DNA of 64,000 nt from Acidocella aromatica (GTDB lineage Bacteria > Pseudomonadota > Alphaproteobacteria > Acetobacterales > Acetobacteraceae). The stretch is taken from assembly GCF_014201825.1 (NCBI RefSeq), contig NZ_JACHFJ010000001.1, positions 248,001-312,000 of the forward strand, given 5' to 3'. The position numbers were made by a program, and so were the translations under genes. This document shows positions 47,900-64,000 of this stretch, piece after piece. The notes beneath the pieces are model-generated. The model did no database searches. It was not told the origin of the DNA and was given only the letters and a program-made list of their open reading frames with translations. Position 1 is the first letter of the stretch, and each line of letters begins with the position of its first letter.

Positions 47900-48511
47900 T
47901 CACAGCGGCACCGCGGCCGGCTTCTCCTTTTGCGGCTTTGCCAGCCCGCCCAGAAACTCGAACACCATTTGGGTGTTCCAATCGGCCGCGCCATCCAGCC
48001 GCGCCACCAACCGCCCTTCGGCGTCCAGCACGATCGTCACCGGCACGCCATCCGTATCCAGCACGTCCAGGCTATGGCCATCCGGGTCCAGCAGCACGGG
48101 CAGGTCGTGGATCTTGCGGCTAGCGAAAAACGGCTTCACCGCCGCCGCGCCGTCAACGTCGATGGCAATCGGCAGCACCAACCCGCCAAAGGGCTTGATG
48201 CGCTCGGCCAGGGCGGCGAGGCTCGGCAGTTCCTCGCCGCAGGGGCCACACCATGTGGCCCAGATATTCACCACCAGCACATGGCCCTTGTAATCCGCCA
48301 GTGTCAGCCTGCGCCCCTTGTCGGTGCTGAACACCAGCGGCGGCGCGGCGGAAGGGGTAAGCTGCGTCCAGGCCAAGGCGGCATCCGGCAGAGCATCTTC
48401 GCTGCTCTGCGCCACGGCGCGATTGCCCCAGGCGGCGGCAATGGCTAATCCAGGGGCGGCGGCGATGATGGATCGCCTGGATAGCAAAGGGCGCTTGGAC
48501 GTGACGGACAA
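47900..48511 (-). CDS. TlpA-family thiol-disulphide protein, probably Tat-exported
   Basis: A 203-residue thioredoxin-fold protein with the active site WATWCGPC and the typical [12 protein letters not shown] and [16 protein letters not shown] stretches. The N-terminus has a twin-arginine-like leader ([20 protein letters not shown]), so it may be Tat-exported to the periplasm, where it would reduce or handle thiols (cytochrome c maturation). No ATG fits; a TTG at 48511 has GGAG eight bases upstream. That start overlaps the divergent argH start by 11 bases, an unusual arrangement. Confidence 0.82.
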
Positions 48512-49907
48512 GAACAATTCTCCGGTAAAAGGCCAGCTGCAATGGGGCGGACGGTTCGGCGCCGGCCCCGATGCGGTGATGCAGGCCATTAATGTCTCGA
48601 TCGGCTTCGACCGCAAGCTCTGGGCGCAGGACATTGCCGGCAGCCAGGCGCATGCCGCGATGCTGGCCAAGCAGGGCATCATCACTCCCGAGGATCAGGC
48701 CGCCATCAAGCGCGGACTGGAGGATATCGCCGACGACATCGAGGATGGCCGCTTCGGCTTCTCGGACGCGCTGGAGGACATCCACACCAATATCGAGGTC
48801 CGCCTGACCGAGCGCATCGGCGAGGCCGCACGCCGCCTGCACACCGCCCGCAGCCGCAACGACCAAGTGGCGACCGACTTCAAGCTCTATGTGCGCGAGG
48901 CCATCGACGGCATCCTGGCCCAGGTGAAGGATCTGATGCTCGCTTTGGCCGAGCGCGCCGCCGAGCATGCCGCCACGGTGATGCCGGGCTTCACCCATCT
49001 GCAAACGGCGCAGCCGGTCACCTTCGGGCATCATCTGCTGGCCTATGTGGAGATGCTGGGCCGCGATTCCGGCCGCCTGGAAGACGCCCGCAAGCGCCTC
49101 AACGAATGCCCTCTGGGCGCCGCCGCCCTGGCCGGCACGTCCTTCCCCATCGACCGCTTCGCCACCGCCACGGCGCTCGGCTTCGACCGCCCGACCGCCA
49201 ACTCGCTCGATTCGGTCTCCGACCGCGATTTTGCGCTGGAATTCCTCTCGGCGCTGTCGATCATGGCGATGCATCTCTCCCGCTTCGCCGAGGAGATCAT
49301 CATCTGGTGCTCCTCGCCCTACCGGCTGATCTCGCTCTCCGACGCCTTCACCACCGGCTCCTCGATCATGCCGCAGAAGCGCAACCCGGACGCCGCCGAG
49401 CTGACCAAGGCCAAGACCGGGCGCATCTTCGGCCATCTGCTCGGCCTGCTCACCGTGATGAAGGGCCTGCCCATGGCCTATGCCAAGGACATGCAGGAGG
49501 ACAAGGAGCCGGTGTTCGACGCCGTGGACGCCATCACCCTCAGCCTCGCCGCCACGGCGGGCATGGTGCGCGACCTCACCGCCGACACCGCCCGCATGGC
49601 GGCCCTGGCGGGCAGCGGCTTCTCCACCGCCACGGACCTCGCCGACTGGCTGGTGCGGGTGCTGAAGATGCCCTTCCGCGACGCGCATCATGTCACGGGC
49701 CGCATCGTGCGTATCGCCGAGGAGCGCGGGGTGGATATCTCCGAGCTGTCCCTGGCCGAAATGCAATCCGTGGAGCCGCGCATCACGCAGGAGATTTTCG
49801 ACGTGCTGACGGTTCAGGCCTCGGTCGCCTCGCGCACCAGCTTCGGCGGCACCGCGCCGCAGAACGTGGCCAAGGCCGCTGCCCTGTGGCTGGAGAAACT
49901 CAAATGA
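48501..49907 (+). CDS. argH: Argininosuccinate lyase
   Basis: ArgH cleaves argininosuccinate to arginine and fumarate. The 468-residue protein begins near [13 protein letters not shown], has [31 protein letters not shown] and the superfamily signature [11 protein letters not shown] with the catalytic serine, and ends [12 protein letters not shown]. The GTG at 48501 puts the conserved WGGRF 12 residues in, as usual, with AAGGG nine bases upstream. ATGs at 48465 and 48468 are alternatives. Its stop overlaps the LptM-like start as ATGA. Confidence 0.95.
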
Positions 49908-50026
49908 AGCCGCTGCTGGCCTTGCTCTGCCTGCTGGCGCTGGCGGGCTGCGGCCGGCGCGGCGCGCCCGTGCCGCCCGGCCCGGCGCAGGATATCGTCT
50001 ACCCCCACCCCTACCCGTCTGAATAA
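49904..50026 (+). CDS. LptM-like small lipoprotein
   Basis: A 40-residue lipoprotein, [20 protein letters not shown] and then a Pro-rich tail ending YPHPYPSE. The lipobox LAGC gives cysteine 16, followed by [10 protein letters not shown]. Small lipoproteins of this form (LptM/YifL) lie beside lysA/dapF or argH in proteobacteria. In E. coli LptM helps assemble the LptD barrel with its disulphides. It overlaps argH by four bases and lies 11 bases before lysA, so all three are one transcript. It is too short to be called by many gene finders. Confidence 0.75.
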
Positions 50027-50037
50027 AGTAACGACCC

Positions 50038-51351
50038 ATGGCTGATGTTTATACCGGCGCGGAGCCGGATCTGGCGGCATTGCTCGCCGCCCGCCCGGCT
50101 TTCTCGATGAACGTGCGCGAAGGCCTGAGCTTCGAATCCGTGCCCCTGAACGCGATCGCGGACCAGTTCGGCACGCCCGTATGGGTGTATGGCGCGGGCA
50201 GCATCCGCGCGCGTTTCGCGGCACTCAAGGCGGCCTTCGCGGGCGAGAACCTGCCCGTGCATATCCATTACGCGGTTAAGGCCAACGACCATCTGGCCAT
50301 CCTCAGCCAGTTCCAGCGCCTTGGCGCGGGGGCGGATGTGGTCAGCATCGGCGAGTTCCTGCGCGCCCGCCAGGCTGGCGTGGCGGCGGCGGATATCGTG
50401 TATTCCGGCGTCGGCAAATCGGCGGAGGAGCTGGAGACCGCACTGGGCCAGGGCATCGGGCAGATCAACGTGGAAAGCGCCGAGGAGCTGGAGATGCTCT
50501 CCGGCATCGCCACGCGGCTGGGCGTGACCGCCCCGGTGGTGCTGCGCATGAACCCGGATGTGGATGCCGGCACCCACGCCAAGATCACCACCGGCCTCGC
50601 CGAGAACAAATTCGGCATCGCGGCGGCGGATATCCCCGCCCTTTACGCCCACGCCGCCAGCCTGCCGGGGATCAGGGCGCTGGGTCTGGCGCTGCATATC
50701 GGCAGCCAGATCCTCTCCACCGAGCCCTACGCCAAGGCCTACGCCAAGGCCGCCGACATGGTGCGTGCCCTGCGCGACCAGAGGTTGAGCGTCGAGGTGC
50801 TGGACCTCGGCGGCGGCATCGGCATTGGCTACCATGACGAACCGGGCATGAATCTCGCCGCCTTCGCCGCCACGATCCGCCGCACGGTGGGTGATCTCGG
50901 CGTGCGGCTGATGGTGGAGCCGGGGCGGTATCTGGTGGGGCCGGCTGGCCTGCTGCTGGCCTCGGTGATTTTGCAGAAGCGCACGCAGAAGCGCTTCGTG
51001 GTGCTGGACGCCGCGATGAACGAGCTGATGCGCCCGGCGCTCTACGAGGCATGGCACGGCATCCTGCCCGTGGACCCGGCTTTGTTCCACACCGCGCAGA
51101 CGCAAGCCGATGTCGTCGGCCCGATCTGCGAAAGCGCAGATTGCTTCGCCCAGGACCGCGCCTTGCCCGACCTGCCCCCCGGCACCCGCGTAGCGCTGCT
51201 GGATACTGGAGCCTACGGCGCGGTGATGAGCAGCGCCTATAACGCCCGCCCGCGCGCTGCTTCGGTGCTGGTCGATGGCGGCAAGGCGGTGTTGATCACT
51301 CCACGCCAGCCCCCGCAGGACCTCTGGGCGGACGAGATCGTTCCCGCCTAA
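50038..51351 (+). CDS. lysA: Diaminopimelate decarboxylase
   Basis: LysA decarboxylates meso-diaminopimelate to lysine with pyridoxal phosphate. The 437-residue protein has the PLP lysine in HYAVKAN (Lys81), the phosphate-binding glycine loop in LGGGIGIGY, the EPGRYLVGPAG motif and the active-site cysteine in VGPICESADCFA. It is of normal length. Its upstream neighbours argH and the LptM-like gene give the common argH-lipoprotein-lysA cluster. It converges with copD, with only four bases between stops. Confidence 0.95.
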   Translation: MADVYTGAEPDLAALLAARPAFSMNVREGLSFESVPLNAIADQFGTPVWVYGAGSIRARFAALKAAFAGENLPVHIHYAVKANDHLAILSQFQRLGAGADVVSIGEFLRARQAGVAAADIVYSGVGKSAEELETALGQGIGQINVESAEELEMLSGIATRLGVTAPVVLRMNPDVDAGTHAKITTGLAENKFGIAAADIPALYAHAASLPGIRALGLALHIGSQILSTEPYAKAYAKAADMVRALRDQRLSVEVLDLGGGIGIGYHDEPGMNLAAFAATIRRTVGDLGVRLMVEPGRYLVGPAGLLLASVILQKRTQKRFVVLDAAMNELMRPALYEAWHGILPVDPALFHTAQTQADVVGPICESADCFAQDRALPDLPPGTRVALLDTGAYGAVMSSAYNARPRAASVLVDGGKAVLITPRQPPQDLWADEIVPA

Positions 51352-51355
51352 GACC

Positions 51356-52228
51356 TTACATCCCCGCCATGCCAGCCATGGCGGGGGGCTCCAGTTGCAA
51401 TAGCACCCCGGCGGCGAGCAGAACGGCAAAACCAAGACCGATTTCCAGCGCCACGGTGCGACATAAGGCGGCGCGGCTGCCCGGCAGGCTTGGGGTGAGA
51501 CGAAACTTGTTGCGCGCGGCTAGGCCAATGAGCACCGCCAGCGCCAGGAGCTTCGCGCTGACCAAGGCACCATAGGCCGAGGAAAACAGCGCCCCCACCC
51601 CGCCGATCAGCAGTACGAACTGCACCACCGCCGCGCTCAACAGCACGGCCACGCAGGCCATGCCCAACGGCGAGAAGCGCCTCGCCAGGCGCGCGGCTTC
51701 ATCCCCCGGCAAATGCCGTAGCGCCAGCAACAGCGCCGGCAACGTACCCAGCCACAACGCTGCCCCGGCCAGATGTAGCACGGCGCTGGCCAGCAGCACA
51801 TTACCCTCCGGCCCGTTCATGGCTCCGCCATGCCCCAGCCAAGCCTGGGCCAACACGCCGCCCAACCCCAGCAGGGCGGCAGGGCGCGTCCAACCTGCTT
51901 GGAACAGCAGCATGGCCAGCAGCAGCACGGCCACACGCCCCAGCAGCAGCGCGCCGAAGCGCGTATCCTGCGCCACGATCGGACTGGCGGTGATGATATC
52001 AGCCCAGCCCTGGGCCGCGGCGAAATACGCTGTTTGCAGCAGAAACCATCCCGCTCCCGCTCCAAGCGCCAGGGCGAAGCCGCCCCAGGCCAGAAGTTTA
52101 AGCCCCGGCACCCGCGCCCCGCGCAGCAGCGTGGCGGCCAGGACCATGGTGCCGGACACGGAAAAACACCCAGCCAGATGCAGCCCCCGGCACAACCCGC
52201 GCAGCACCAGCCAAGCGGGACTGTCCAT
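51356..52228 (-). CDS. copD: CopD-family copper resistance membrane protein
   Basis: The 290-residue membrane protein has about eight hydrophobic segments, with the conserved motifs LAGCFSVSGTMVLAAT (near the N-terminus), HLAGAALWLGTLPAL and ALVSAKLLALAVLIGLAARNKFRL. These are CopD/PcoD-like (copper import or delivery to the cytoplasm). The ATG at 52228 overlaps the copC stop by one base (TAATG). CopC and CopD normally work together, CopC handing periplasmic copper to CopD. Confidence 0.82.
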   Translation of the reverse strand: MDSPAWLVLRGLCRGLHLAGCFSVSGTMVLAATLLRGARVPGLKLLAWGGFALALGAGAGWFLLQTAYFAAAQGWADIITASPIVAQDTRFGALLLGRVAVLLLAMLLFQAGWTRPAALLGLGGVLAQAWLGHGGAMNGPEGNVLLASAVLHLAGAALWLGTLPALLLALRHLPGDEAARLARRFSPLGMACVAVLLSAAVVQFVLLIGGVGALFSSAYGALVSAKLLALAVLIGLAARNKFRLTPSLPGSRAALCRTVALEIGLGFAVLLAAGVLLQLEPPAMAGMAGM

Positions 52229-52578
52229 TAAGGGGAGACGGTGAAGCTGAAGCTGCCCTGGGTCTTGTGCGTGTCCTGCGAGAGGGCATGCCACGTCACG
52301 ACATATTTGCCCGGCGCGGTGATGTGCATGGGCACGGCCAGCTCGTTCTCATGCCCAGGCACGGGTTGGGGCTTGGCGGTTTGCACCTGCGCACCGTCCG
52401 GCCCGGCCACCGTCACGGTGCAGAAAGGCACTTCCAGCCCCTCGGTATAGGTGAGCAGAAGCTGCGCGGGCGGGGTGGCGACTACGGCGCCGACGCTGGG
52501 CTCAGCACTCTTGAGGAAGGCATGAGCAAAGGCGGGAGCCGGCGCGAACACGGCCAGCAGCGGCAGCAAACGCTTCAT
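52228..52578 (-). CDS. copC: CopC-family periplasmic copper-binding protein
   Basis: A 116-residue exported protein. The signal peptide is cleaved before HAFLKSAEP, so the mature chain begins with the copper-binding histidine. The beta-barrel motifs PAQLLLTYTEGLEVPF and TWHALSQDTHKTQGSFSF follow; the latter holds the second histidine. The ATG at 52578 is preferred because GGAGG lies seven bases upstream. It is the first gene of copC-copD. Confidence 0.9.
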   Translation of the reverse strand: MKRLLPLLAVFAPAPAFAHAFLKSAEPSVGAVVATPPAQLLLTYTEGLEVPFCTVTVAGPDGAQVQTAKPQPVPGHENELAVPMHITAPGKYVVTWHALSQDTHKTQGSFSFTVSP

Positions 52579-52603
52579 CACCGCCCCTCCCGTCCTACGC
52601 CGT

Positions 52604-53170
52604 TCAGAACCAGCCGAACAGGCGCTGGAAAACCCCCTGCGACTGGTTGCTGTTCTGCGGCGTGGCGCCGGTGGTCACCGGCTGGCCGAGCGCCTGATTC
52701 TCCTGCAGGCGCTTCTGCTCTGCCGGGGCGTTCACCGTGGGCTGCGGCGCCGGGCCGGATCCCATCAGGCCGGAGACAAAGCCCTGCGGCTTGCTGGCGA
52801 TCATCGCGTTCTGGTTCACCTGGGCGCGGATATCGCCCTGCGGCGCGGGACCAGCCTGCTCCAGCAAAGCCTGCTCACCCGGCGTGGTGTTGCTCGGTGG
52901 CGCGGTGATAGCGTTCTGCGGCGAGACAATATTCGCGCCTTCTTGTGCGGCGTCCACCTGCTGCGGGCGCGGCTCGCCGGGATTGGGCTGCTGCAGCTGG
53001 CCGAGTTCAGGCGGCAAGGAGAGTGGGGCCTCGGTGCCGACCTGGAAGGCGTCCGGCGGCGTATTGGTGAGGCCCAGGGTCTTGCGGGTACCCTCCGTGC
53101 ACCCGGCGAGCGCCAGGGCAAGGGCGATGGTGGCGGCAGCGGCAACGGGGCGGGCGAGAACAGATTTCAT
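52604..53170 (-). CDS. BamF-like (DUF3035) lipoprotein
   Basis: A 188-residue lipoprotein: lipobox LALAGC with cysteine 24, then the DUF3035 signature PPDAFQV followed by APLSLPPELGQL. The rest is Gln/Pro/Ala-rich and probably disordered, ending in the aromatic tail FQRLFGWF. In Caulobacter, BamF is a subunit of the outer-membrane beta-barrel assembly complex. It lies nine bases from lspA, which processes lipoproteins, probably in the same transcript. Confidence 0.8.
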   Translation of the reverse strand: MKSVLARPVAAAATIALALALAGCTEGTRKTLGLTNTPPDAFQVGTEAPLSLPPELGQLQQPNPGEPRPQQVDAAQEGANIVSPQNAITAPPSNTTPGEQALLEQAGPAPQGDIRAQVNQNAMIASKPQGFVSGLMGSGPAPQPTVNAPAEQKRLQENQALGQPVTTGATPQNSNQSQGVFQRLFGWF

Positions 53171-53179
53171 GGCGTCTTC

Positions 53180-53668
53180 CTAACCTTCCCCCGGGTTAGC
53201 CGCAACGGGGGGCTTTTGTAACAGATTTTCCAGCATCAGCGCGACAACACCGCAGACAATTGCGGAATCCCCGACATTGAACACCCAGGGGTAGTACAAC
53301 CCGCCCAGATGCGCCTGGAGGAAATCCACCACCGCGCCGAAGCGCAAACGGTCGATGACATTGCCGATGGCCCCGCCCGCGATGGCCCCCACCGCGAGGG
53401 TGACCACCCATTTCTGCGTGCGCCACATCCAGGTGAACAGCGCCAGCACTACGACACTGGCGATGAGGGCCAGCAGGATTTTAGCCCCCGCCCCGGCGAA
53501 CAGCCCGAAGGTGATGCCGTGATTCCACACCAGCACGAGGTTGAGGAACGGCGCCACGGTGAGCAGATGCCCGTCCTGCAGCCCCAGCGGGTTGAGGACG
53601 AGATATTTGCTCCACTGGTCCACCCCCAGAACCAGGGCTGCGACAAGGAACCCGGCCAGACGGCGCAT
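53180..53668 (-). CDS. lspA: Lipoprotein signal peptidase (signal peptidase II)
   Basis: LspA removes signal peptides from prolipoproteins at the inner membrane. The 162-residue protein has four membrane segments and the aspartyl-protease pair: GNVIDRLRFGAVVDFL and FNVGDSAIVCG. Most relatives have FNVAD; here a glycine replaces the alanine, which should be tolerated. The start overlaps the ileS stop (TGATG). The ileS-lspA pair is common. Confidence 0.93.
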   Translation of the reverse strand: MRRLAGFLVAALVLGVDQWSKYLVLNPLGLQDGHLLTVAPFLNLVLVWNHGITFGLFAGAGAKILLALIASVVVLALFTWMWRTQKWVVTLAVGAIAGGAIGNVIDRLRFGAVVDFLQAHLGGLYYPWVFNVGDSAIVCGVVALMLENLLQKPPVAANPGEG

Positions 53669-56466
53669 CAGGCGGCGTCCACCGCGTCGCAGCAGCGGCG
53701 GCAGAGCGTGGGGTGTTTGGCAATGCTCCCCACCTCGGGCAGTACTTTCCAGCAGCGCTCGCATTTCTGGCCCTGCGCGGCGATAGCCGTGTCGTTCTCG
53801 CCGAAACTCACCGCCGAGGTGATGCAGATATCCGCCCAGAGTGCCGCGTCATCCAGCACGGCGCGGGCCTCGGCGGAGAGCACTGCCTCGGCCTGGAGCG
53901 AGGAGCCGATGGCCTTGTCGCGGCGCATCTCCTCGATGGCGCCAGTGACATTGCCGCGATGCTCGCGGATCTTGCCGAAGATCTCCGCCAGCGCATCGTC
54001 GCGCCACGCAGCCGGAACTTCGGGGAACAGCTCCAGATGCACGGAAGTCTCCGCACCGAAGCGGGTGACCCAGGCTTCCTCAGCGGTGAAAGGCAGCGCC
54101 GGAGCCAGCCAGGTAGCCAGGCAGCGGTGCAGGATGTCGAGGAAGCTGCGGCAGGCGCGGCGCTTTTCGGCGGCGGGCGCGTCGCAATACAGGCTGTCCT
54201 TGCGGATATCGAAGTAGAAGGCCGAAAGATCGGTGGCGCAGAAATGATGGATGGCCGGGTACACGCCGGTCCAGTCATGCCCCCGCACCGCCGCTTCAAT
54301 CTTGCCGTTCAACTCCCATAGCCGGTGCAGCATGAAGCGCTCCAGCGCCGGGAAGCTCGCCTCGGGCACGCGCTCGGCCTCGGTGAAGCCATCCAGCGAG
54401 CCCAGCACCCAGCGCAGCGTGTTGCGCAGGCGGCGGTAAAGCTCGGCCTGCTGCTTGAGGATTTCGGGACCGATGCGCAAATCTTCCGATGTGTCGGAGT
54501 TCATCACCCACAGGCGCAGAATGTCCGCGCCGTATTTGTCGTTCACCTCCTGCGGGGCGGTGACGTTGCCGAGCGATTTGGACATCTTGCGGCCCTGCTC
54601 GTCGAGCACGAAGCCGTCCGTTACGATGGTCTTGAACGGCGCGACGCCGCGCGTGCCGACGGATTCCAGCAGCGAGGCCTGGAACCAGCCGCGATGCTGG
54701 TCGGAGCCTTCGAGATAGATATCGGCAGGGGTGGGAATGCCACGCGCTTCCAGCACAAAAGCATGGGTCGAACCGGACTCGAACCACACATCCACCACGT
54801 CGAAAATCTGCTCGTAGTTATCGGGGTTGCGGTCGGGGCCTAGGAAGTCGGAAGCCGGACGGGCGTACCACGCATCGGCGCCCTCTTTGGTGAAGATGTC
54901 CACCACGCGCTGCATCACCGCCGCGTCGCGCAGCGGTTCGTGCGTGGTCTTATCAACAAAAATCGCAATCGGCACGCCCCAGGCACGCTGGCGCGAGATG
55001 CACCAATCGGGGCGGGATTCCACCATCGAGCGGATGCGGTTGCGCCCGATCTCTGGCACAAATTTCGTATTGTCGATGGCGGCAAGCGCCTTGTTGCGGA
55101 TCTCGTCCTTACCGTCCATGCGGATGAACCACTGCGCGGTGGCACGGTAGATCAGCGGCGCCTTGGAGCGCCAGCTATGCGGATAAGAGTGCAGGAACTC
55201 GTTACGATGCAGCAGCGCGCCCGCTTCCTTCAGTTTCTCGCAGACAGGATCGGCGGCTTTATAAACATGCAGACCAGCGAAAAGCGGCACGCTGGCGTAA
55301 TAGGTGCCGTCCGCATCCACCGTATCCGGCACCACGATGCCATGCGCCTTGCAGAGAGCAAAATCGTCCTCACCATGGCCGGGGGCCATGTGCACAATGC
55401 CGGTACCGGCATCGGCGGTCACAAAGTCACCTAACAAGACCGGAGAATTATCAGTGTATAGCTTGTCCTCAGGACTGTAGAGGGGGTGCCTACAAATTAC
55501 GTTTGAGTCCCGTCCGCCAAGCTCTGAGCCCTTATAGGACTTGAGCTCTATGCAGCTTTCTATGCCAACGGTGTTTGTAAATTGGACCAGCAGCTCACGC
55601 GCGACCACAAGTCGCTCGCCAACACGCGCCAAGGAGCCGTCCTTAACCGCTGTTACCTGGACCAAAACATACTCAAGGGTAGGGTTTACTGCGAGAGCAC
55701 GGTTACCAGGGATGGTCCATGGTGTCGTGGTCCAGATAACCAAAGATGCACCAAGCAGATCGGGTTCAGAGGAGCTGTTAGATCCAAAGTAAAGGAAGAT
55801 CCGGAACCGCACGTAAATCGCGGTGTCCTTCTTGTCGTAATACTCGACCTCGGCTTCGGCGAGCGCGGTCTTTTCCACCGGGCTCCACATCACCGGGCGC
55901 AGGCCGCGATAGAGCGCGCCGTTGAGCAGGAACCGGCCGATCTCACCCGCGATCAGCGCCTCGGAGGCGAAATCCATAGTGGCGTATCGGTTGGCCCAAT
56001 CCCCGGCCACGCCGAGGCGCTGGAACTCGGCGGACTGCACGTCCAGCCAGTGCTGCGCGTATTCGCGGCATTCCTTGCGGAATTCCAGAACCGGCACTTG
56101 GTCCTTATCCAGCTTCTTGGCCCGGTATTTTTCCTCGACCTTCCACTCGATGGGCAGGCCGTGGCAATCCCAACCAGGGATGTAATCGGCATCCTTGCCC
56201 GCCATCTGCTGGGCGCGGTTGATGACATCCTTATGAATCTTGTTCAGCGCGTGGCCGATATGCAGATTGCCGTTGGCGTAGGGCGGGCCGTCATGCAGCA
56301 CAAATTTCGGCCGCCCCTTGCCCGCCGCGCGGAGCTTTTGCCACAGCCCCATCTCTTCCCAGCGCTTAAGCATCTCCGGCTCGCGCTTGGGCAGTTCGCC
56401 GCGCATGGGGAACTCGGTGCGCGGCAGGAATACTGTGGCTTTGTAATCTGGGGTGCTGTCAGTCAT
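53668..56466 (-). CDS. ileS: Isoleucyl-tRNA synthetase, with an internal low-GC mosaic segment
   Basis: IleRS charges tRNA-Ile and edits misactivated valine. The 932-residue protein has HIGH (69-72), KMSKS (about 627-631), the CP1 editing domain between them, and the C-terminal zinc cysteines CERCWKVLPEVG and CRRCC. The frame is complete. From about 55425 to 55815 (residues roughly 217-347, in the editing domain) base composition and codon choice differ sharply from the rest: lower GC, codons such as TTA and AGT. The editing motifs WTTTPWTIPGN and ADAGTGIVHMAPGHGEDD are retained, so the protein should work. Confidence 0.95.
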   Translation of the reverse strand: MTDSTPDYKATVFLPRTEFPMRGELPKREPEMLKRWEEMGLWQKLRAAGKGRPKFVLHDGPPYANGNLHIGHALNKIHKDVINRAQQMAGKDADYIPGWDCHGLPIEWKVEEKYRAKKLDKDQVPVLEFRKECREYAQHWLDVQSAEFQRLGVAGDWANRYATMDFASEALIAGEIGRFLLNGALYRGLRPVMWSPVEKTALAEAEVEYYDKKDTAIYVRFRIFLYFGSNSSSEPDLLGASLVIWTTTPWTIPGNRALAVNPTLEYVLVQVTAVKDGSLARVGERLVVARELLVQFTNTVGIESCIELKSYKGSELGGRDSNVICRHPLYSPEDKLYTDNSPVLLGDFVTADAGTGIVHMAPGHGEDDFALCKAHGIVVPDTVDADGTYYASVPLFAGLHVYKAADPVCEKLKEAGALLHRNEFLHSYPHSWRSKAPLIYRATAQWFIRMDGKDEIRNKALAAIDNTKFVPEIGRNRIRSMVESRPDWCISRQRAWGVPIAIFVDKTTHEPLRDAAVMQRVVDIFTKEGADAWYARPASDFLGPDRNPDNYEQIFDVVDVWFESGSTHAFVLEARGIPTPADIYLEGSDQHRGWFQASLLESVGTRGVAPFKTIVTDGFVLDEQGRKMSKSLGNVTAPQEVNDKYGADILRLWVMNSDTSEDLRIGPEILKQQAELYRRLRNTLRWVLGSLDGFTEAERVPEASFPALERFMLHRLWELNGKIEAAVRGHDWTGVYPAIHHFCATDLSAFYFDIRKDSLYCDAPAAEKRRACRSFLDILHRCLATWLAPALPFTAEEAWVTRFGAETSVHLELFPEVPAAWRDDALAEIFGKIREHRGNVTGAIEEMRRDKAIGSSLQAEAVLSAEARAVLDDAALWADICITSAVSFGENDTAIAAQGQKCERCWKVLPEVGSIAKHPTLCRRCCDAVDAA
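55425..55815 (-). other. Low-GC mosaic segment inside ileS
   Basis: By hand count the line 55441-55500 has 28 G+C of 60, against 43 of 60 at 55861-55920 in the same gene. The edges are abrupt and the frame is unbroken. This looks like a recombined patch from a lower-GC relative covering part of the CP1 editing domain. Confidence 0.7.
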
Positions 56467-57410
56467 GGGCTCTGGGGTTTCTCTTGATTTTCGTCGCTGT
56501 CAAGCATGCGACGAGCCTGGGTGGCGTCGGCCTCGATCTGCGCCTTCAGCGCCTCGAAGCTGGGAAATTTCTGCTCCTCGCGGAGGAAATGGTGCAGATA
56601 GATGGTGATCTCCCGGCCATACAGATCGCCGGAGAAATCGAAGAAATGCGCCTCCAGCCGGGATTCGGTGCCGCCCACGGTAGGGCGCTGGCCGATATTG
56701 GCGACACCCTTCACCACCGCGTCATCAATGCGGGCAGTGACGGCATACACCCCGCGCTGCGGCTCCAGATGCCGCCCGAGGGGGATATTGGCGGTGGGGA
56801 AGCCGATAGTGCGGCCGCGCTTGTCGCCATGCATCACCTCACCACGGATGGATGGCGGGCGCCCGAGCAGCGCCGCGGCGCGCTCCGGATAACCGTCCTG
56901 GATCAGGCGGCGGATGCGCGATGAGGAAATCGGCCCTTCCTGATCCGTCACCGGCGGCACGATGGTCAGCCCCATGCCCAGCGCCTCGGCGCGGGCCGCG
57001 AGGAAAGCGACATCGCCGCCCCGCCGGTGGCCGAAAGCGAAATCCGCGCCGCAGACAAGATGTACGGCCCCCAAGCCCTGGTGCAGAACCTCCCCCACGA
57101 ACTCCTCGGCCGAGAGGTGTGCAAAAGCGGCATCGAAGGGCAGTTCGTACAGATATTGCACGCCGAGCCCCGCCAGCGCCGCCGCGCGCTCGGTGGAGAG
57201 GGTTAGGCGGAACGGCGGGTCCTGCGGGCGGAAGAATTCACGCGGATGCGGCTCGAAGGTGAGCACGGCGCGCGGCGCGTCCGGCCGGGCGGCGTGGGCG
57301 GCGCGCAGCACCGCCGCGTGGCCCAGATGCACACCGTCGAAATTCCCCAGCGCGATGGTGGCGCCGCGAGCCTCGGGGGGCAGGCCGCGCCAGTCGTGAA
57401 AAATCTTCAT
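56463..57410 (-). CDS. ribF: Bifunctional riboflavin kinase/FAD synthetase
   Basis: RibF phosphorylates riboflavin to FMN and adenylylates it to FAD. The 315-residue protein has the N-terminal adenylyltransferase domain (ALGNFDGVHLGHAAVL, then SSSRIRRLIQDG) and the C-terminal kinase domain (GKRGRTIGFPTANIPLG and LEAHFFDFSGDLYGREITI). It is full length. Its stop overlaps the ileS start by four bases (ATGA), giving ribF-ileS-lspA, a conserved order. Confidence 0.95.
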   Translation of the reverse strand: MKIFHDWRGLPPEARGATIALGNFDGVHLGHAAVLRAAHAARPDAPRAVLTFEPHPREFFRPQDPPFRLTLSTERAAALAGLGVQYLYELPFDAAFAHLSAEEFVGEVLHQGLGAVHLVCGADFAFGHRRGGDVAFLAARAEALGMGLTIVPPVTDQEGPISSSRIRRLIQDGYPERAAALLGRPPSIRGEVMHGDKRGRTIGFPTANIPLGRHLEPQRGVYAVTARIDDAVVKGVANIGQRPTVGGTESRLEAHFFDFSGDLYGREITIYLHHFLREEQKFPSFEALKAQIEADATQARRMLDSDENQEKPQSP

Positions 57411-57495
57411 GCCGGTGCAAAAGCGCCAACACTTGGCCGCAGGTCAAGGGTGGGGCATGAAGATCACATAGACTAGGAACGGAGCGGGTCATCTC

Positions 57496-58683
57496 ATGCG
57501 GGGTATTTTCAAGCTGCTGGCCGGTATCGTGGTGGCGCTGGCCGTGGTTTGGGCCGGGTTGTGGTGGTACGCGCAGACGCGGCTGCAAGCCGTGCTGAAG
57601 GCTTATGCCGCCGAGATGACGCCCGCGGACGGCTCCTCCAGCCTGAGCTATGACCGCATCTCGGGCGGCGGCTTCCCCTTCTCCGCCAAGGCCACCATCG
57701 CCAACCCGAACCTGACCGTGCCCCTGCCCGGCAGCCAGATCCCCGGCCCGCTGGCGCTGAATGTCGCCTATGTCACGCTGCGGATCGACCTGCTCAACCC
57801 GCTGGTGCTGCATATCGACGTACCGGACAAAATCACCGGCCATGTGCCTCAGGGCGAAGGCGCCGTGACCTTCACCAGCTTCGACGCGACGGCGAAGCTG
57901 AGCCCGGCGGCGCTGTTCAACCCGCACGTCTTCGCCGTCAGCGGCGTGGACACGACAATCACCGGCGTCAACGTACTGGCCTCCAGCGGCAGCCTGCAGG
58001 TGCTGCATATCGACAGCATCCGCACTCACCAGGCAGTGCTTCCCTCGGCCAGCCCGGCCCAGACCGGCCTCACGCTGACCGAGGATTTCCAAGGCATCTC
58101 CCTGCCTGGCTGGCTCACCCAGCTGCTGCGCGTGCCGTTCAAGGGGCAGGTGGCGCATCTGGGCATAAATTTGGCGCTCTCCGGCCCTCTGGATTGGCCA
58201 GCCCTCTCGCAGCAGCTCCAGGCCACGCCGCAAGGGCCGGAGCGGACAAGAGTTCTGGTTAACGCGCTGCATGGCTGGGCCAACCAGGGCGGCAACGGCA
58301 CGGGCAGCTTGAACCTCGTGGCGGGGCCGACCACGCTGAGCGCCGCCGGCACTGTGAAGTTCGACACCAATGTCCAACCCAACGGCACGGTGGACGTCAC
58401 CGCCGACCACCTGGACGCCCTGACCGCCGCGATCACCGCCTCCTATCCGCAGGCACAGGACAGCATCAACCAGATCGAGGCGCAGCTCGCACCCTATATC
58501 TCCGCCAGCGCCACTGGCGGGCAGGAGCTGACCATCCACGCCACCTATGGCAGCAGCGGCATCATGGCGAATGGGACGAAACTGGGCGAGATGCCGCCGC
58601 TGGACTGGAGCCTGCTGACCAGCCCGCCGCCGGCCCAGGCGCCGGGCGATGGCTCAGGCGCGGCCGCCGGGACTAATCCTTAA
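57496..58683 (+). CDS. DUF2125 domain protein
   Basis: A 395-residue protein with one N-terminal hydrophobic segment (LAGIVVALAVVWAGLWWYAQ), probably an uncleaved membrane anchor, and a large beta-rich periplasmic part. Family features are SYDRISGGGFPFSAKATIAN near residues 51-70 and GSLNLVAGPTTLSAAGTVKF. DUF2125 proteins are widespread in alphaproteobacteria, with unknown function and a fold recalling AsmA-type lipid-transfer proteins (inference). Its last 11 bases overlap the end of the ParB-like gene on the other strand. Confidence 0.8.
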   Translation: MRGIFKLLAGIVVALAVVWAGLWWYAQTRLQAVLKAYAAEMTPADGSSSLSYDRISGGGFPFSAKATIANPNLTVPLPGSQIPGPLALNVAYVTLRIDLLNPLVLHIDVPDKITGHVPQGEGAVTFTSFDATAKLSPAALFNPHVFAVSGVDTTITGVNVLASSGSLQVLHIDSIRTHQAVLPSASPAQTGLTLTEDFQGISLPGWLTQLLRVPFKGQVAHLGINLALSGPLDWPALSQQLQATPQGPERTRVLVNALHGWANQGGNGTGSLNLVAGPTTLSAAGTVKFDTNVQPNGTVDVTADHLDALTAAITASYPQAQDSINQIEAQLAPYISASATGGQELTIHATYGSSGIMANGTKLGEMPPLDWSLLTSPPPAQAPGDGSGAAAGTNP

Positions 58684-59299
58684 GGACAGGGCCACACCAG
58701 CCGGGCAGATACCCAGCCTCCTGCTCCTTGGCGAGACTCAGGGCGTGCTGCAACGCCTTGTCCGGGTTATCCTCCAGCAATGACGGCTTGATGCACCGGC
58801 GCAGGTAATCAGCCCAGAGGAACTCGCTGTAAGGCGTGGTATCCTTGGCGTAGCCCCCGGCCCGGCGCAGCGCCCCGGCTAGGCTGCGATACGGATCATC
58901 CTCCATCTCGCCCACATGCTTGGGCAAGTGCTTGGGGGCGCGCCGCTCGCCCTTGGCGTCGTAGAGATGCATCCAAGCGCGATTGTCGAGATAGACCCAG
59001 AAGGCCTCAGGCTCCAGTGCCGAAAGATCGGCGACCACCGTCGTCGCCACATCCTCCACCCCTTCCTCGAGCAATGCGCGGGCGAGATGATGATGGTCTA
59101 TGATATAAGATTTGCCCCCGGGCCCCAGCACCACCGGGATAAGATGCTGCCCCAGATATTCCGCCTTTTGCTCCGCCGCGCGGGTGCGCCATTCCTTACG
59201 CTTCTGCGCCACCTCGCGCAGGCCGATGGTTAGCTGCGTCGGGCGTAATTGCTTGATTTTGACGGGGATTAGCCGAGGTTCGCGCGCGAATGTCATCAT
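58673..59299 (-). CDS. ParB-like (ParB/Srx superfamily) protein
   Basis: A 208-residue protein with the ParB-like nuclease-type fold: LIPVKIKQLRPTQLTIGLRE, then IPVVLGPGGKSYIIDHHHLA, with the IDHHHLARAL helix resembling the ParB/sulfiredoxin box. The C-terminal half (PYRSLAGALRRAGGYAK, EFLWADYLRRC) is typical of a ParB-like family of putative nucleases or NTP-binding proteins. It lacks a ParB helix-turn-helix and is not beside parA, so it is not a chromosome partition protein. The start could be 59299 or 59296. It converges with DUF2125 with an 11-base overlap. Confidence 0.75.
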   Translation of the reverse strand: MMTFAREPRLIPVKIKQLRPTQLTIGLREVAQKRKEWRTRAAEQKAEYLGQHLIPVVLGPGGKSYIIDHHHLARALLEEGVEDVATTVVADLSALEPEAFWVYLDNRAWMHLYDAKGERRAPKHLPKHVGEMEDDPYRSLAGALRRAGGYAKDTTPYSEFLWADYLRRCIKPSLLEDNPDKALQHALSLAKEQEAGYLPGWCGPVLKD

Positions 59300-59429
59300 G
59301 CCCTCATGCAACAAAGCCACGCCGGAGGCAGAACTGCCCGCCACGGCGCAGCCATGTTGCTGAAGACTTAACGGCGGTCATTGAACTGGATCAAATCCAG
59401 CTAAAAAATCCGCCGCCCAGTGGCAGAAA

Positions 59430-60056
59430 CTACTGCTGGGCCTCTGTGGCCTTCTCGATCTGGTTCTGCATCGCGTTCAGCAGGGCCGAGACATTGCCGC
59501 CATTATCGGTGATGACGGAGGCGTAGTCGTTGCGCGTGGTGATGCACATCGAGGTCCCGGCCACGATCACGTCGGTGATTTGCGGCTTGCCGCCGATCTC
59601 ATCCACCTGCCAGGCCACATCCGCCGGGGCCTTGCCGGGGGTGTTGATGGTTGTGTCCACCAGCATGCCATTCCCCTGCGGCTTGGCGCCGTTCACGGTG
59701 AAGCTGATGCCCTGATACGCCTTGATCTGGTAGGTGATGTTGTACGAGAGCAGCTGGTGGAAGAGCTGCTGGAATTTGTCGTGCTGCGCCGGGGTGGCAA
59801 TGTTGATGTAGCGCCCCAGCACGTAATCCCCCACTTGGTTCACGGCCACGATCTGGTTGACCAGAGTACGCAGCTGCGCGGCCTTGTCGGCCGCCGAGCC
59901 ATTGCCGTTGACGATGGCCACAAGCTGCTGGCCGGATTGGTTGATGAAGCTCTGAGCATCAGAGGCGGTAATGGCGCGGGCCGGGGAGATACCCGCCATC
60001 ACGCCCAGAATCGGCGCGGCCATGGCGGCACCCAGGATAAAGCGGCGGAAATGCAT
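59430..60056 (-). CDS. mlaC: MlaC-like phospholipid-binding periplasmic protein
   Basis: A 208-residue exported protein: signal peptide to about residue 28 (ISPARA), then the Ttg2/MlaC fold with LRTLVNQIVAVNQVGDYVLG, QHDKFQQLFHQLLSYNIT and the lipid-pocket strands VDTTINTP and AWQVDEIGGKPQITDV. MlaC shuttles phospholipids between MlaA at the outer membrane and the MlaFEDB complex. It follows mlaA by 27 bases. mlaD/E/F are not in the window. Confidence 0.88.
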   Translation of the reverse strand: MHFRRFILGAAMAAPILGVMAGISPARAITASDAQSFINQSGQQLVAIVNGNGSAADKAAQLRTLVNQIVAVNQVGDYVLGRYINIATPAQHDKFQQLFHQLLSYNITYQIKAYQGISFTVNGAKPQGNGMLVDTTINTPGKAPADVAWQVDEIGGKPQITDVIVAGTSMCITTRNDYASVITDNGGNVSALLNAMQNQIEKATEAQQ

Positions 60057-60083
60057 GTCTGTCCTCGTGTCCTTAATTGAGCG

Positions 60084-60896
60084 TTAATGCGCGTAGTACG
60101 GCGTGCCGGGTGCGCCATTGGCCCCCTGCAGGTCGTTCTGCCGAATTAACTGCAATTGTGAGTCACGAGATTGGCGATAAAGGCTCCGGAATGTGGCATA
60201 GGGGTCCAGCGCCGTGGCGTTGATCTGGTCGATGGTGTCCAGATACTGGGCTCGGGTGTTGATCAGGTGCAACCCACCCTCGGCATAGCCGAAATCGTTA
60301 AGCGCGGTGTTCGCGGGCGCCAGTTCCATCGGGGTGGCGAAGAACTGCACGGGGATCTGCCAGAAATCACGCAGGCCGGACGGGCCAAACACCGGCAAGT
60401 ACAGATACGGGCCGGAGGAGAACCCCCACACGGCGAGCGTCAGGCCGAAATCGGTGTCCGTCTCCTTGTAGCCCAGCGCGCTGGCGGGGTCGAAAATGCC
60501 GCCAATGCCGATGGTGGAGTTGATGAGGAAGCGCATCAGCGAAGTGCCGGCATCCGTGGGCAGGCCGGAGAGCATGAAGTTCACCGTACGCGCGGGCTCG
60601 TTGATGTTGTCTGTAAAGTATCCAACATGGGTGCGGATGGGCTGGGTGGTGATGGCCACATACCCCTTGGCCACCGGCTTCATGGCGTATTTGTCTAGCG
60701 TATTGTTGACCTTGAAGAAGGTCCGGTTGGTAGGCTCCAGCGGATCGTTGAGCTGCTGGTAAGCCTGATAATCGGCGGTGTCCGATTTCGGCGGCGGGGT
60801 GGCGCAGCCGGACAGGCCGATCGCCAGCAGCGACGCCCCCAGCCCCAGAACCTGCCCAACGCGGCGTTTAAAGCCCTTCACGTGATTCACCCGCAC
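60084..60896 (-). CDS. mlaA: MlaA/VacJ outer-membrane lipoprotein
   Basis: MlaA removes mislocalised phospholipid from the outer leaflet. The 270-residue lipoprotein has lipobox GLSGC (cysteine about 32), NDPLEPTNRTFFKVN, FMLSGLPTDAGTSLMRFLIN, GGIFDPASALGYKETDTDFG and the amphipathic GPYLYLPVFGPS. The GTG at 60896 is chosen: a perfect AAGGAGG lies seven bases before it. The ATG at 60947 is poorer. It is the first gene of mlaA-mlaC and is divergent from metF. Confidence 0.92.
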   Translation of the reverse strand: MRVNHVKGFKRRVGQVLGLGASLLAIGLSGCATPPPKSDTADYQAYQQLNDPLEPTNRTFFKVNNTLDKYAMKPVAKGYVAITTQPIRTHVGYFTDNINEPARTVNFMLSGLPTDAGTSLMRFLINSTIGIGGIFDPASALGYKETDTDFGLTLAVWGFSSGPYLYLPVFGPSGLRDFWQIPVQFFATPMELAPANTALNDFGYAEGGLHLINTRAQYLDTIDQINATALDPYATFRSLYRQSRDSQLQLIRQNDLQGANGAPGTPYYAH

Positions 60897-61069
60897 CTTA
60901 TAGCCTCCTTCGCGGCGCGCCCAGTGAACGGCGCGGCCAAATATCATGTGATGTTCATTACCCCGGCTTCAACCGTGGCGCTACCTCCGCCCCCGCATGC
61001 GCGTTAGACCTTGCGTAAATGTGGCGGTGCTGCCACGACACGGGCCCGATAGAGCTATATATAGAGCAA

Positions 61070-62008
61070 ATGACCCACTCCCCTACCCCCGATACGCTGG
61101 AACGCTGGGCCTCGGGCACGCGCATCGCCCCGCTGCCCACGCGCGAGGGCTTGGCCCCGCCCGCCATCTCCTTCGAGTTCTTCCCGCCGAAAACCCCGGC
61201 GCTGGAAGCGCAGCTCTGGACCTGTATCGAGCGTCTGGCCACGCTGCGCCCGAATTTCGTCTCCGTGACCTACGGCGCGGGCGGCAGCACGCAGGAGCGC
61301 ACCCACGCCACCGTGTTGCGCATCGTGCAGGAGACCGACCTGACCCCGGCGGCGCATCTCACCTGTGTGGGGGCCACGCGTGAGGCTGTAGATGACGTCG
61401 CCCGGCGCTACTGGGAGGCTGGGGTGCGGCATATCGTGGCCCTGCGCGGCGATGCACCAAATGGCGAGAACTACGTGCCGCATCCGGGCGGCTACGCCTT
61501 CGCGGCCGATCTGGTAACCGGGCTGAAGAAAGTCGCGGATTTCGAGATCACCGTCGCCGCCTACCCGGAGACCCACCCGCAGGCGGCGAGCCCCGAAGCT
61601 GACCTAGACAACCTCAAGCGCAAGCTCGATGCCGGGGCCACCCGCGCCATCAGCCAGGTTTTCTTCGACAACGCCATCTTCCTGCGCTTCCTCGACCGCG
61701 CTTTGGCCGCTGGCATCAAGGCGCCGATCGTGCCGGGGATCATGCCGGTCACCAACTTCACCCAGGCTGAGAAATTCTGCGCCGCCTGCGGCACCTCGGT
61801 GCCCAAATGGATGGCCGGGATGTTCGAGGGGCTGGATGACGACGTGGAAACGCGGCGCATGGTCTCGGCGGCGGTGGCGGCCGAGCAGGTGCGCCTGCTC
61901 CAAGCCAACGGCATCGACGAATTCCATTTCTACACCCTCAACCGGCCGGACCTGACCTACGCCATCGCCCGTATCCTGGGCGTGAAGCCGCAGCCCAAAG
62001 CCGCATGA
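61070..62008 (+). CDS. metF: 5,10-methylenetetrahydrofolate reductase
   Basis: MetF makes the 5-methyltetrahydrofolate used by MetH (also in this window). The 312-residue flavoprotein shows ISFEFFPPKTPALEAQLW, SVTYGAGGSTQERTH, AHLTCVGATREAVD, ALRGDAPNG, AISQVFFDN and PGIMPVTNF, and ends FHFYTLNRPDLTYAI. The ATG at 61070 is chosen by length and by the FAD-domain start; the ribosome site is weak. A CTATATATAG palindrome lies just upstream (61055-61064). Its stop overlaps the helicase gene as ATGA. Confidence 0.95.
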   Translation: MTHSPTPDTLERWASGTRIAPLPTREGLAPPAISFEFFPPKTPALEAQLWTCIERLATLRPNFVSVTYGAGGSTQERTHATVLRIVQETDLTPAAHLTCVGATREAVDDVARRYWEAGVRHIVALRGDAPNGENYVPHPGGYAFAADLVTGLKKVADFEITVAAYPETHPQAASPEADLDNLKRKLDAGATRAISQVFFDNAIFLRFLDRALAAGIKAPIVPGIMPVTNFTQAEKFCAACGTSVPKWMAGMFEGLDDDVETRRMVSAAVAAEQVRLLQANGIDEFHFYTLNRPDLTYAIARILGVKPQPKAA

Positions 62009-64000
62009 GCGATTATCTCGCCGGGCTGAACCCGGCCCAGCGCGATGCCGTGGAAACCACCGAGGGGCCGGTGCTGGTGCTGGCCGGCGCCGGTACGGGC
62101 AAGACTCGCGTACTTACCACCCGCTTCGCGCATCTGCTGCTGACCAAACGGGCCTTCCCCAACCAGATTCTAACCGTCACCTTCACCAACAAGGCGGCGC
62201 GGGAGATGCGCGAGCGTCTGCACCGCCTGCTCGGCCAGCCGGTGGAGGGCCTGTGGCTCGGCACCTTCCACGCTTTGTGCGCACGCATGCTGCGCCGCTT
62301 CGCCGAGCGCGTGGGGCTGACCTCCGATTTCTCCATCCTGGACACCGACGACCAGTTCCGCCTGCTCAAGCAGATTATGGAAGCCGCGCATATCGACACC
62401 AAGCGCTGGCCCGCCAACGCGTTGATGACGCAAATTCAACGTTGGAAAGACAAGGGTTACCTGCCCGGCCAGATCCCCGCGAACGAGTCGAGTGACTTCG
62501 CCAACGGCAAGGCCGAGGCCTTGTACAAGGCGTATCAGGACCGGCTGAAATCGCTCAACGCCGTGGATTTCGGCGATCTGCTGCTGCTCATGGTGAACCT
62601 GCTCAAAACCGATGCCGAGGTATTAAGCACCTATCAGCGCATGTTCCGCTACATCTTGGTGGACGAATACCAGGACACCAATTTGGTGCAGTATTACTGG
62701 CTGCGGCTGCTGGCCCAAGGGCACAAGAATATCTGCTGCGTGGGCGATGACGACCAAAGCATCTATTCCTGGCGCGGCGCCGAGATCGAGAACATCCTGA
62801 AATTCGAACGCGATTTCCCCGGCGCGAAAGTCATCCGGTTGGAGGCGAATTACCGTTCCACCGCGCCGATTCTGGCCGCCGCCTCGCACCTCATCGCCCA
62901 TAACGAGGGCCGGTTGGGCAAGACGCTCCATCCCGGCCGGGTTGATGCCGATGGCGAGCCTGTGGAAGTGGTCGCTGTGTGGGACTCGGAGGAAGAGGCC
63001 CGCATGATCGCCTCGCGCGCCGAGTCGCTCTGGCGCGCCAAGCACAAGCTATCGGAAGTGGCGATTCTGGTGCGCGCCGGGTTCCAGACCCGCGCCTTCG
63101 AAGAACGGCTGATGGTGCTGGGCATCCCCTATCGCATCGTCGGCGGATTGCGCTTCTACGAGCGGCAGGAAATCCGCGACGCGCTGGCGTATCTGCGCCT
63201 GCTCGCTTTGCCCGCCTACGATCTCGCCTTCGAGCGCATCGTCAACCTGCCCAAGCGCGGCGTTGGCGAGGGCGCGATGCGCACCGTCCACGAGGCCGCG
63301 CGGGCGATGAACATCCCGCTCTACGCCGCCACGCAGAAGCTGGTGGCCGAAGGCGGGTTCAAGGGCAAACTGCGCGAGACTCTGCGCGGACTGCTAGAGA
63401 GCTTCGCGCGCTGGCGCGAGGAGCTGGCCCTGCGCGGCCCGGTGGTGGCGCTGGAGACGCTGCTCGACGAATCGGGCTATCTCGCCATGTGGAAGGCCGA
63501 CAAATCCCCCGAAGCGCCGGGACGGCTTGAGAACCTGAAGGAACTCGTGCGCGCGCTCGCGGATTTCGAGACCCTGCCGCAATTCCTCGAGCACGTCTCG
63601 CTGGTGACGGAAAACGAGGATCAGGCCGGAGACGACAAGCTCTCAATGATGACGCTGCACGGCGCCAAGGGGCTGGAGTTCGACACGGTATTCCTCCCTG
63701 GCTGGGAGGAAGGGCTGTTCCCCAACCAGCGCGCGCTGGATGAAGGCGGCAATAAGAGCCTCGAAGAGGAGCGCCGGCTCGCTTATGTGGGCATCACCCG
63801 CGCCAAGCACCGCGCCATCATCAGCCACGCCGCCCGGCGCAAGAGCTATGCTGGCTGGCAGGACGCCATCCCCAGCCGCTTCCTCGACGAGCTGCCCGAG
63901 AACATGCTTCGCCATTCCGGCTCGGCGCAGACGCAACCTTACCGCCAGCCGCATATGTCGGCGGGCTTTCCCGTGCTGGCCAAGCGCCCCGCGCGAGCCA
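62005..64000 (+). CDS. uvrD: UvrD/PcrA-type DNA helicase (3' end outside the window)
   Basis: 665 codons are visible without a stop. It is a superfamily-1A helicase: Walker A LAGAGTGKT (residues 26-34), TFTNKAAREMRERL, DEYQDTNLVQYYWL, VGDDDQSIYSWRGA, LEANYRSTAPIL, MTLHGAKGLEFDTVFLPGWE and the VGITRAKHRA motif VI. It unwinds DNA in mismatch and excision repair. It starts at an ATG overlapping the metF stop. The sequence ends in a proline/arginine-rich C-terminal region typical of UvrD, so probably only about 60-100 residues are missing. Confidence 0.94.
   Translation, partial: MSDYLAGLNPAQRDAVETTEGPVLVLAGAGTGKTRVLTTRFAHLLLTKRAFPNQILTVTFTNKAAREMRERLHRLLGQPVEGLWLGTFHALCARMLRRFAERVGLTSDFSILDTDDQFRLLKQIMEAAHIDTKRWPANALMTQIQRWKDKGYLPGQIPANESSDFANGKAEALYKAYQDRLKSLNAVDFGDLLLLMVNLLKTDAEVLSTYQRMFRYILVDEYQDTNLVQYYWLRLLAQGHKNICCVGDDDQSIYSWRGAEIENILKFERDFPGAKVIRLEANYRSTAPILAAASHLIAHNEGRLGKTLHPGRVDADGEPVEVVAVWDSEEEARMIASRAESLWRAKHKLSEVAILVRAGFQTRAFEERLMVLGIPYRIVGGLRFYERQEIRDALAYLRLLALPAYDLAFERIVNLPKRGVGEGAMRTVHEAARAMNIPLYAATQKLVAEGGFKGKLRETLRGLLESFARWREELALRGPVVALETLLDESGYLAMWKADKSPEAPGRLENLKELVRALADFETLPQFLEHVSLVTENEDQAGDDKLSMMTLHGAKGLEFDTVFLPGWEEGLFPNQRALDEGGNKSLEEERRLAYVGITRAKHRAIISHAARRKSYAGWQDAIPSRFLDELPENMLRHSGSAQTQPYRQPHMSAGFPVLAKRPARA

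Follow-up and report, generated by a model that had tools for sequence, protein, structure and literature searches.

Can one part of an essential gene carry a different history from the codons on either side of it? The question is raised by ileS, the gene for a bacterial-type isoleucine--tRNA ligase (IleRS), in the 64,000-nucleotide stretch of Acidocella aromatica analyzed here (the window; bases 248001-312000 of contig 1 of genome G000), where it occupies 53668..56466 on the minus strand. A preliminary description of this DNA had pointed to a patch of about 390 bases of low G+C content in the CP1 editing region and had read it as intragenic gene conversion. The patch is present, and we consider it very probable that recombination brought in a divergent, lower-GC CP1 allele, replacing codons 222-353 in an ileS that is otherwise native to Acidocella. 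The same place in the gene has been replaced in other lineages as well, and this recurrence is a larger finding than the single patch of A. aromatica.

The gene is an open frame of 932 amino acids and the single full-length ileS of its genome; three further matches there are pieces at most 29% identical. Its product lies above the curated threshold of the TIGR00392 profile (840 bits, cut-off 621), the HIGH and KMSKS motifs expected of a bacterial isoleucine--tRNA ligase are legible in the translation, and a C-terminal zinc finger is recognized (PF06827; 27.7 bits, cut-off 21.3). The profile of mupirocin-insensitive IleRS (MupA, MupB) gives a score below its cut-off (287 bits vs 1900). By family match, motifs and fold, the protein resembles a type 1 bacterial IleRS with a CP1 post-transfer editing domain, and differs from one in that part of its CP1 is of other ancestry.

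The replaced segment of CP1

The G+C content is 52.3% in the patch (55408-55803), compared with 62.0% in the 5' remainder of ileS and 63.9% in the 3' remainder, and the two local counts given earlier were exact (28/60 at 55441-55500; 43/60 at 55861-55920). At third codon positions the G+C fraction (GC3) is 0.56 over codons 222-347 and 0.81-0.83 in the main flanks; taken over 40 codons at a time, it runs at 0.80-0.88 upstream, falls to 0.50-0.63 at codons ~211-370, is still at 0.60-0.70 as far as codon ~440 and rises again beyond it. When 165 called genes with 300 codons or more, from 432 kb of G000 including the window, were scanned for an internal low-GC3 segment, ileS had the second strongest dip (log-likelihood ratio, LLR, 23.2). 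The strongest (LLR 24.9) looks from its translation like an antisense open reading frame (ORF).

Comparison with the nearest relative, Acidocella sp. clean390 (L005, identical in sequence to L085 of genome G030), places the segment more closely. The DNA of the region aligns over 18.2 kb (44001-62243) at 89.2-90.0% identity with a sole break at 55425-55802, close to the 55425-55815 first proposed. Protein identity is 99% over residues 1-221, 51% over 222-347, 89% over 348-440 and 96% over 441-930. The replaced segment itself, the N-terminal part of the CP1 editing domain (codons 222-353; 55408..55803, minus strand, as are all features of the gene given below), is 53% identical in amino acids and 54% in nucleotides. 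At its 5' border (codons 221/222; 55801..55806) the change is abrupt: codons 212-221 agree letter for letter, and divergence begins at 222. At the 3' border zone (codons 353-357; 55396..55410) identity is back at codon 354. The residues added relative to L005 lie at codons ~225-236 (55759..55794). Within the patch, 39 of the 61 residues common to both proteins use a different codon, against 33/218 upstream (90/471 after codon 435), which shows that a divergent CP1 allele took the place of the DNA and that the change goes beyond the protein.

A further stretch, codons 366-435 (55162..55371), is intermediate, with 82% nucleotide identity to L005 vs 92-94% elsewhere and a codon difference at 24 of 62 shared residues. 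The best low-GC3 segment (codons 225-430) is longer than the best segment by identity (222-353) because these codons are intermediate and somewhat low in GC3 in L005 too, where a weak segment at 364-433 reaches an LLR of 8.3. They may represent a second, closer import, or flank carried along from another Acidocella.

As the preliminary description held, the frame and the editing motifs survive: W245-TTTPWTIPGN and G354-TGIVHMAPGHGEDDF are both intact. The first motif (WTTTPWTIPGN, codons 245-255; 55702..55734) lies inside the patch and is kept with synonymous codons changed, and the second (GTGIVHMAPGHGEDDF, codons 354-369; 55360..55407) lies just outside. Crossovers would have fallen at the margins of two conserved blocks, VRF (5') and GTG(I/F)VH (3'), so that frame and motifs would stay whole. 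The TTTPWT block and the later H...HG..D block, which have catalytic roles in IleRS CP1 editing, show no variation in 37 aligned sequences, of which ten are patched. An AlphaFold2 model of residues 190-445 has a predicted local distance difference test score (pLDDT) of 93.9 and a predicted template modeling score (pTM) of 0.90, with the lowest block, residues 230-239, in the added residues. IleRS structures head its Foldseek matches (8c9f, template modeling score 0.84; the isolated editing domain 1wk8, 0.86 by target length). Given invariant motifs and a normal predicted fold, the patched CP1 is likely to be a working editing domain. CP1 substitutions in B. subtilis and E. coli, as described in PMC5282499, disrupted quality control while aminoacylation stayed near wild type; by analogy, altered editing specificity of the patched IleRS is conceivable. 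Among other IleRS proteins, NCBIfam NF040702 is a described variant carrying an N-acetyltransferase domain; ahead of residue 279 of the A. aromatica protein, its profile has ~160 additional positions, which may place the extra domain within CP1 or upstream of it.

Recurrence at two places in ileS

A search of the genus found ileS matches in 38/38 Acidocella genomes, several with a partial gene. We then applied a change-point test to 146 ileS sequences, chiefly those closest to the A. aromatica gene together with broader Alphaproteobacteria. They stand for 145 genes, one being counted twice (L099/L120) and other identical sequences removed; loci without a usable ORF were excluded (five, two and two in three sequence sets, the last of them the broader proteobacterial sample). 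With a strong mark set at LLR >13, a value chosen after seeing the list, 17/146 sequences pass, and 16 of the 17 segments lie in CP1; as the sequences were drawn by similarity to the A. aromatica gene, 17/146 is no frequency for all bacteria. A sub-gene transfer in this synthetase had been called unusual, a view that does not hold for ileS, where the event recurs. The CP1-patched genes comprise six from Acidocella (A. aromatica, A. facilis ATCC 35904 [L081], L030, L019, L109 and L026), three others from the same family (L121, L123 and L237), five from Rhodobacter relatives (L040, L042, L045, L053 and Roseibaca domitiana, L050) and two from other alphaproteobacterial families (L213 and L223). 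The 17th segment, in L239 of the window's family, is C-terminal (residues 852-898). The six sequences that come next below the mark all have their segment outside CP1 (L054 12.9, L103 12.6, L107 11.0, L230 10.7, L044 10.0, L249 9.3). Broader proteobacterial samples gave 0/27 and 1/20 at the same mark, the single case (L309) being C-terminal.

Patched ileS genes form a discrete class. The difference between CP1 and gene-mean GC3 is -0.04 to +0.03 in 130 unpatched high-GC genes and -0.12 to -0.25 in the 17 marked ones. Among pairs with flanks at least 96% identical, CP1 identity averages 0.87 when both are unpatched (118 pairs, minimum 0.68) and is 0.53-0.58 when a patch is involved (4 pairs); with flanks at 0.93-0.96, the values are 0.85 (94 pairs, minimum 0.57) and 0.40-0.63 (15 pairs). 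Swaps without a strong GC shift also occur (L015/L099, L038/L041 and L274/L280). In the last pair, both alphaproteobacteria, the flanks have 92% protein identity and CP1 47%, and a composition scan would miss such a swap.

The most striking single fact is that the 5' border is common to lineages of different families. Of 19 pairs, either patched/unpatched or swapped, 18 begin to diverge at A. aromatica codon 217-224, the exception being an unrelated short segment in L123/L239. These pairs include L030 twice, the three swaps without a strong GC shift (L099, L038, L274) and three genes whose flanks are only 63-80% identical (L121, L237, L213). The 3' end is more variable (314-357 in 13/18 pairs, 379-460 in 5/18). 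Across 16 low-GC genes, the mean GC3 difference from unpatched high-GC genes is -0.12 at codons 214-221, -0.42 at 222-230 and -0.13 at 353-360. The codons just before the change are all identical in several pairs (204-220 in L081/L018 and L040/L048; 208-221 in L045/L048). The conserved motif inside the patch is recoded (GC3 0.67 vs 0.92 at codons 244-252), while codons 181-213 are barely changed. A check for hairpins at the borders returned fold z-scores of -1.75 and 0.04.

A second exchange site is the C-terminal segment before the zinc finger, and Escherichia coli offers the best view of it. In the sediment strain SC418, residues ~803-895 are replaced (L346:3898-4203, NZ_LR778147.1): identity to ordinary E. 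coli is 48% in nucleotides and 35% in amino acids, compared with 98% in nucleotides on both sides, and GC3 is 0.41 vs 0.58. Of 5,374 E. coli genomes matching this query, only SC418 has most of it. The nearest named match is Salmonella Infantis SARB27 (L353; 87% in amino acids). When 295 genomes were drawn from the family of G1019, where E. coli-like genes occur, the allele appeared in three that belong to a single genus (87-88%), in one from a second genus (71%) and in two at 56% (L354-L359); in these six, GC3 is 0.28-0.54 in the segment and 0.67-0.78 upstream. No relative appeared in a scan of IMG/VR, and 22 plasmid records all fell below 60%. As the same allele is held by Salmonella and other genera of the family, SC418 seems, on these matches, to have acquired an existing alternative low-GC allele, and it is the clearest case of sub-gene ileS alleles circulating between genera. 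Two Acidocella-genus genes, L103 and L107, show a weaker low GC3 over the C-terminal third (residues ~635-896). The L309 segment, at residues ~852-898, comes from a member of the same phylum as A. aromatica, outside its class.

For CP1, ileS was matched in 5,375/5,426 E. coli genomes (51 gave no match), and the CP1 region of all 5,375 matched at >=90%; a swap of the depth seen in Acidocella was absent from them. Whole ileS is at least 95% identical in every genome matched and CP1 is at 90-95% in 1,119 of the 5,375, so that CP1 may be unusually variable there too.

The valS and leuS genes of 20 Acidocella each served as controls, with four patched species (G000, G004, G015, G028) in both sets. 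No segment comparable to the ileS patch was found in either gene (190 pairs each). The strongest GC3 dips have z-scores of -4.0 in valS (L155, codons 572-682; 19 of the 20 genes count, L154 being a wrong ORF) and -4.8 in leuS (L191, at the ORF start). The ileS CP1 dips in the same scan range from -4.9 to -9.2 at 17 loci (13 different genes, four represented twice), and the weakest ileS case is therefore close to the strongest control. In control pairs whose identity elsewhere is 93% or more, no 126-residue stretch falls below 80% identity in valS (12 pairs) or 87% in leuS (7 pairs). With the limit at 0.90 (18 pairs for each gene), the corresponding values are 0.71 and 0.73. The replacement, its borders, its recurrence and the lack of a like segment in the valS and leuS genes compared are all well supported.

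Source of the segment

Trees of the flanks (45 sequences, 485 columns) and of the patch (120 columns) conflict. By its flanks, the A. aromatica gene is sister to L005 (support 100/97), and the patched Acidocella, six in all, are dispersed among 23 unpatched ones, with five changes that are all forced by well-supported branches. By the patch, the 23 unpatched genes form one clade (97/91), and A. aromatica and the other five patched genes stand outside it; the patch data reject a clade of A. aromatica and L005 (approximately unbiased test, p 0.034). Intragenic conversion had been expected to give the two parts of the gene different nearest relatives with sharp breakpoints, and the trees and borders have this pattern. 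L030 and L081 have sister patches (100/93), a pairing that their flanks reject (p 1.8e-10). In a wider patch tree (122 rows, with 24 mostly SAR11-like rows excluded), a minimum of 10 changes is required to explain the low-GC patches, and 5 of these are forced; the patches have long branches and lie close to their own families. Together with the conflict between flank and patch trees, this indicates that the segment has passed from one lineage to another, for the most part within the range of a family.

Recombination with relatives carrying divergent alleles is likely. The agent would be homologous recombination, the allele would come from a relative, either on the Acidocella stem or in another member of the family, and the replacement would postdate the split of A. 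aromatica from its nearest sequenced relative. Several results weigh against so definite an account. The patch tree has only 120 columns and long branches. The patch data are borderline for a clade of A. aromatica, L005 and L007 (p 0.053), and accept both A. aromatica with the unpatched Acidocella (p 0.15) and an all-Acidocella clade (p 0.34); given the last result, the patch may have come from the stem of the genus. The patches of L019 and L109 are sisters (100/84), and flank data do not reject that pairing either (p 0.18). A 5' border sharp to the letter is clear in about five pairs (those of A. aromatica, L081, L040, L045 and nearly L042), the other relatives being too distant, and the shared border may partly reflect the end of protein conservation. 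A protein search of 397 family, 385 class and 395 order genomes found no donor above 57% amino-acid identity over most of the patch.

The low composition that had suggested a lower-GC donor is confirmed, and with no donor found, the GC content of the donor is read from that composition. Mobile elements gave no closer match: none of 42 plasmid records exceeded 41.1% among the 20 matches listed, none of 12 phage records exceeded 38.2%, and the highest-identity hits of three IMG/VR scans were short pieces round the conserved motif (62% over 34 residues, 68% over 28, 73% over 33).

What drives the exchanges

The recurrence may be neutral, a reading we regard as plausible but somewhat short of probable. 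CP1 and the C-terminal segment would simply be long variable stretches between conserved blocks, into which any relative's DNA can recombine, low-GC imports being merely the visible ones. Both hotspots are indeed flanked by conserved blocks, and the swaps without a strong GC shift are of the kind this account predicts. However, the similarly built ValRS and LeuRS lack such a swap in their 190 pairs each (only 18 and 18 of them at least 0.90 identical), and crossovers would be possible throughout conserved codons 181-213, yet the GC3 trace there is small (-0.04 to -0.06).

Diversifying or balancing selection could instead keep an old pool of CP1 and C-terminal alleles, for example through a toxin, phage protein or amino-acid analogue acting on IleRS; we entertain this only tentatively. 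Allele classes that cross species with discordant flanks (L030/L081; SC418 with Salmonella) speak for it, as does the concentration of swaps in one gene, at two places, among the genes compared. On the other side, our search turned up no agent, and we know of none that acts on these parts of IleRS; the C-terminal variant of E. coli, at 1/5374, is not at intermediate frequency, and no deep CP1 swap occurs in 5375 genomes. A bolder version, which we think unlikely, makes codons ~222-353 and the C-terminal segment two exchangeable allele cassettes, long held by balancing selection under pressure from an antagonist and passed between species and genera like antigen genes. Such cassettes would escape the force that makes the host genome GC-rich, as they would rarely be paired with like alleles, and their bases would drift toward even proportions. 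If so, they would offer, within a single essential gene, a natural experiment on the forces behind high GC content in bacteria.

Accelerated AT-biased evolution in place, through a mutational hotspot or hypermutation and without any import, is improbable. It draws on composition: patch GC3 tracks host GC3 (r 0.84; p 0.001 in 3,000 constrained permutations), and the majority of patches cluster, if loosely, by family. The correlation weakens at four-fold sites (r 0.60, p 0.013) and is absent there within Acidocella (r -0.07). Base composition at these sites is nearly even in the patches (A.22, C.28, G.23, T.27), compared with.04,.45,.44 and.07 (89% G+C) in the same genes outside. Also against it are patch lineages common to discordant flanks, and the recoding of 64% of shared patch residues next to flanks that are 92-94% identical in nucleotides. 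The patch has 56 transitions and 98 transversions relative to L005, the flanks 133 and 66; hypermutation of the deaminase type is disfavored by this excess of transversions. A link between patch and host GC is unlike random low-GC donors and, we tentatively suggest, is what related donors or evolution at a relaxed composition would leave.

That a programmed or mobile device, such as a diversity-generating retroelement, a homing element relic or silent cassettes, drives the swaps is very improbable. Similar borders in unrelated lineages would suit one, but there are no repeats of at least 10 bases within 55300-55950, a protein search found no second copy of the patch in G000, and substitutions are of all kinds. 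For a diversity-generating retroelement in particular, no template repeat was found in that interval and the changes are not adenine-specific. Silent cassettes were also considered in eight genomes with two matches, and none was recognized; we read the matches as genes in fragments, relatives among the synthetases or, in G749, a second IleRS-like gene. An assembly chimera or contamination is scarcely credible: many of the genomes compared are metagenome bins and G000 is in 29 contigs, but the frame is exact, the patch lies mid-contig (503 kb), and like patches occur in the strains A. facilis ATCC 35904, Roseibaca domitiana V10 and E. coli SC418.

Mosaic genes formed by intragenic recombination are familiar from penicillin-binding proteins and from icd beside a prophage. 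The ileS patches share with them sharp divergent tracts in a core gene, and differ in a 5' border that is similar across unrelated lineages; unlike in those cases, we know of no selecting drug or prophage for ileS. Horizontal transfer of IleRS has itself been described for ileS2, the mupirocin-insensitive type, in PMC4861432, where the whole gene moves and not ~130 codons as in A. aromatica; the same paper reports conserved editing-domain regions without relevant substitutions or deletions in 334 sequences. Class I synthetases are held to be anciently modular, with CP1 as a separately acquired module (PMC8835825); that mosaicity concerns the origin of the fold, and the ileS events separate closely related species. 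Searches of the open-access PMC library, a scope outside which subscription papers and preprints fall, brought up no title or abstract that describes a CP1 or C-terminal replacement in ileS.

In several proteobacterial families, then, ileS acts at two places as a slot for exchangeable segments. Synthetase genes often serve as slowly evolving markers, and with two exchangeable segments in ileS, full-length IleRS trees mix histories. Were the cause selective, it would indicate an unrecognized agent acting on the proofreading or C-terminal part of IleRS. Low-GC alleles beside high-GC flanks in one gene also allow hypotheses on how bacterial GC content arises to be tested.

The neighbors of ileS in the window are named from the annotated E. 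coli order ribF-ileS-lspA. Upstream, a ribF-like ORF (56463..57410, minus strand) overlaps ileS by 4 bases. Downstream lies an lspA-like ORF (53180..53764, minus strand), whose true start is probably inside the listed frame. Elsewhere in G000, the third-ranked GC3 dip (LLR 19.3) belongs to L142 (G000:C1:193509-194936), which looks from its translation like an apolipoprotein N-acyltransferase and is low at its 3' end (codons 379-475, 0.58 vs 0.87). An aspartate kinase-like gene, L133 (G000:C1:8193-9404), dips at codons 178-265 (0.67 vs 0.90).

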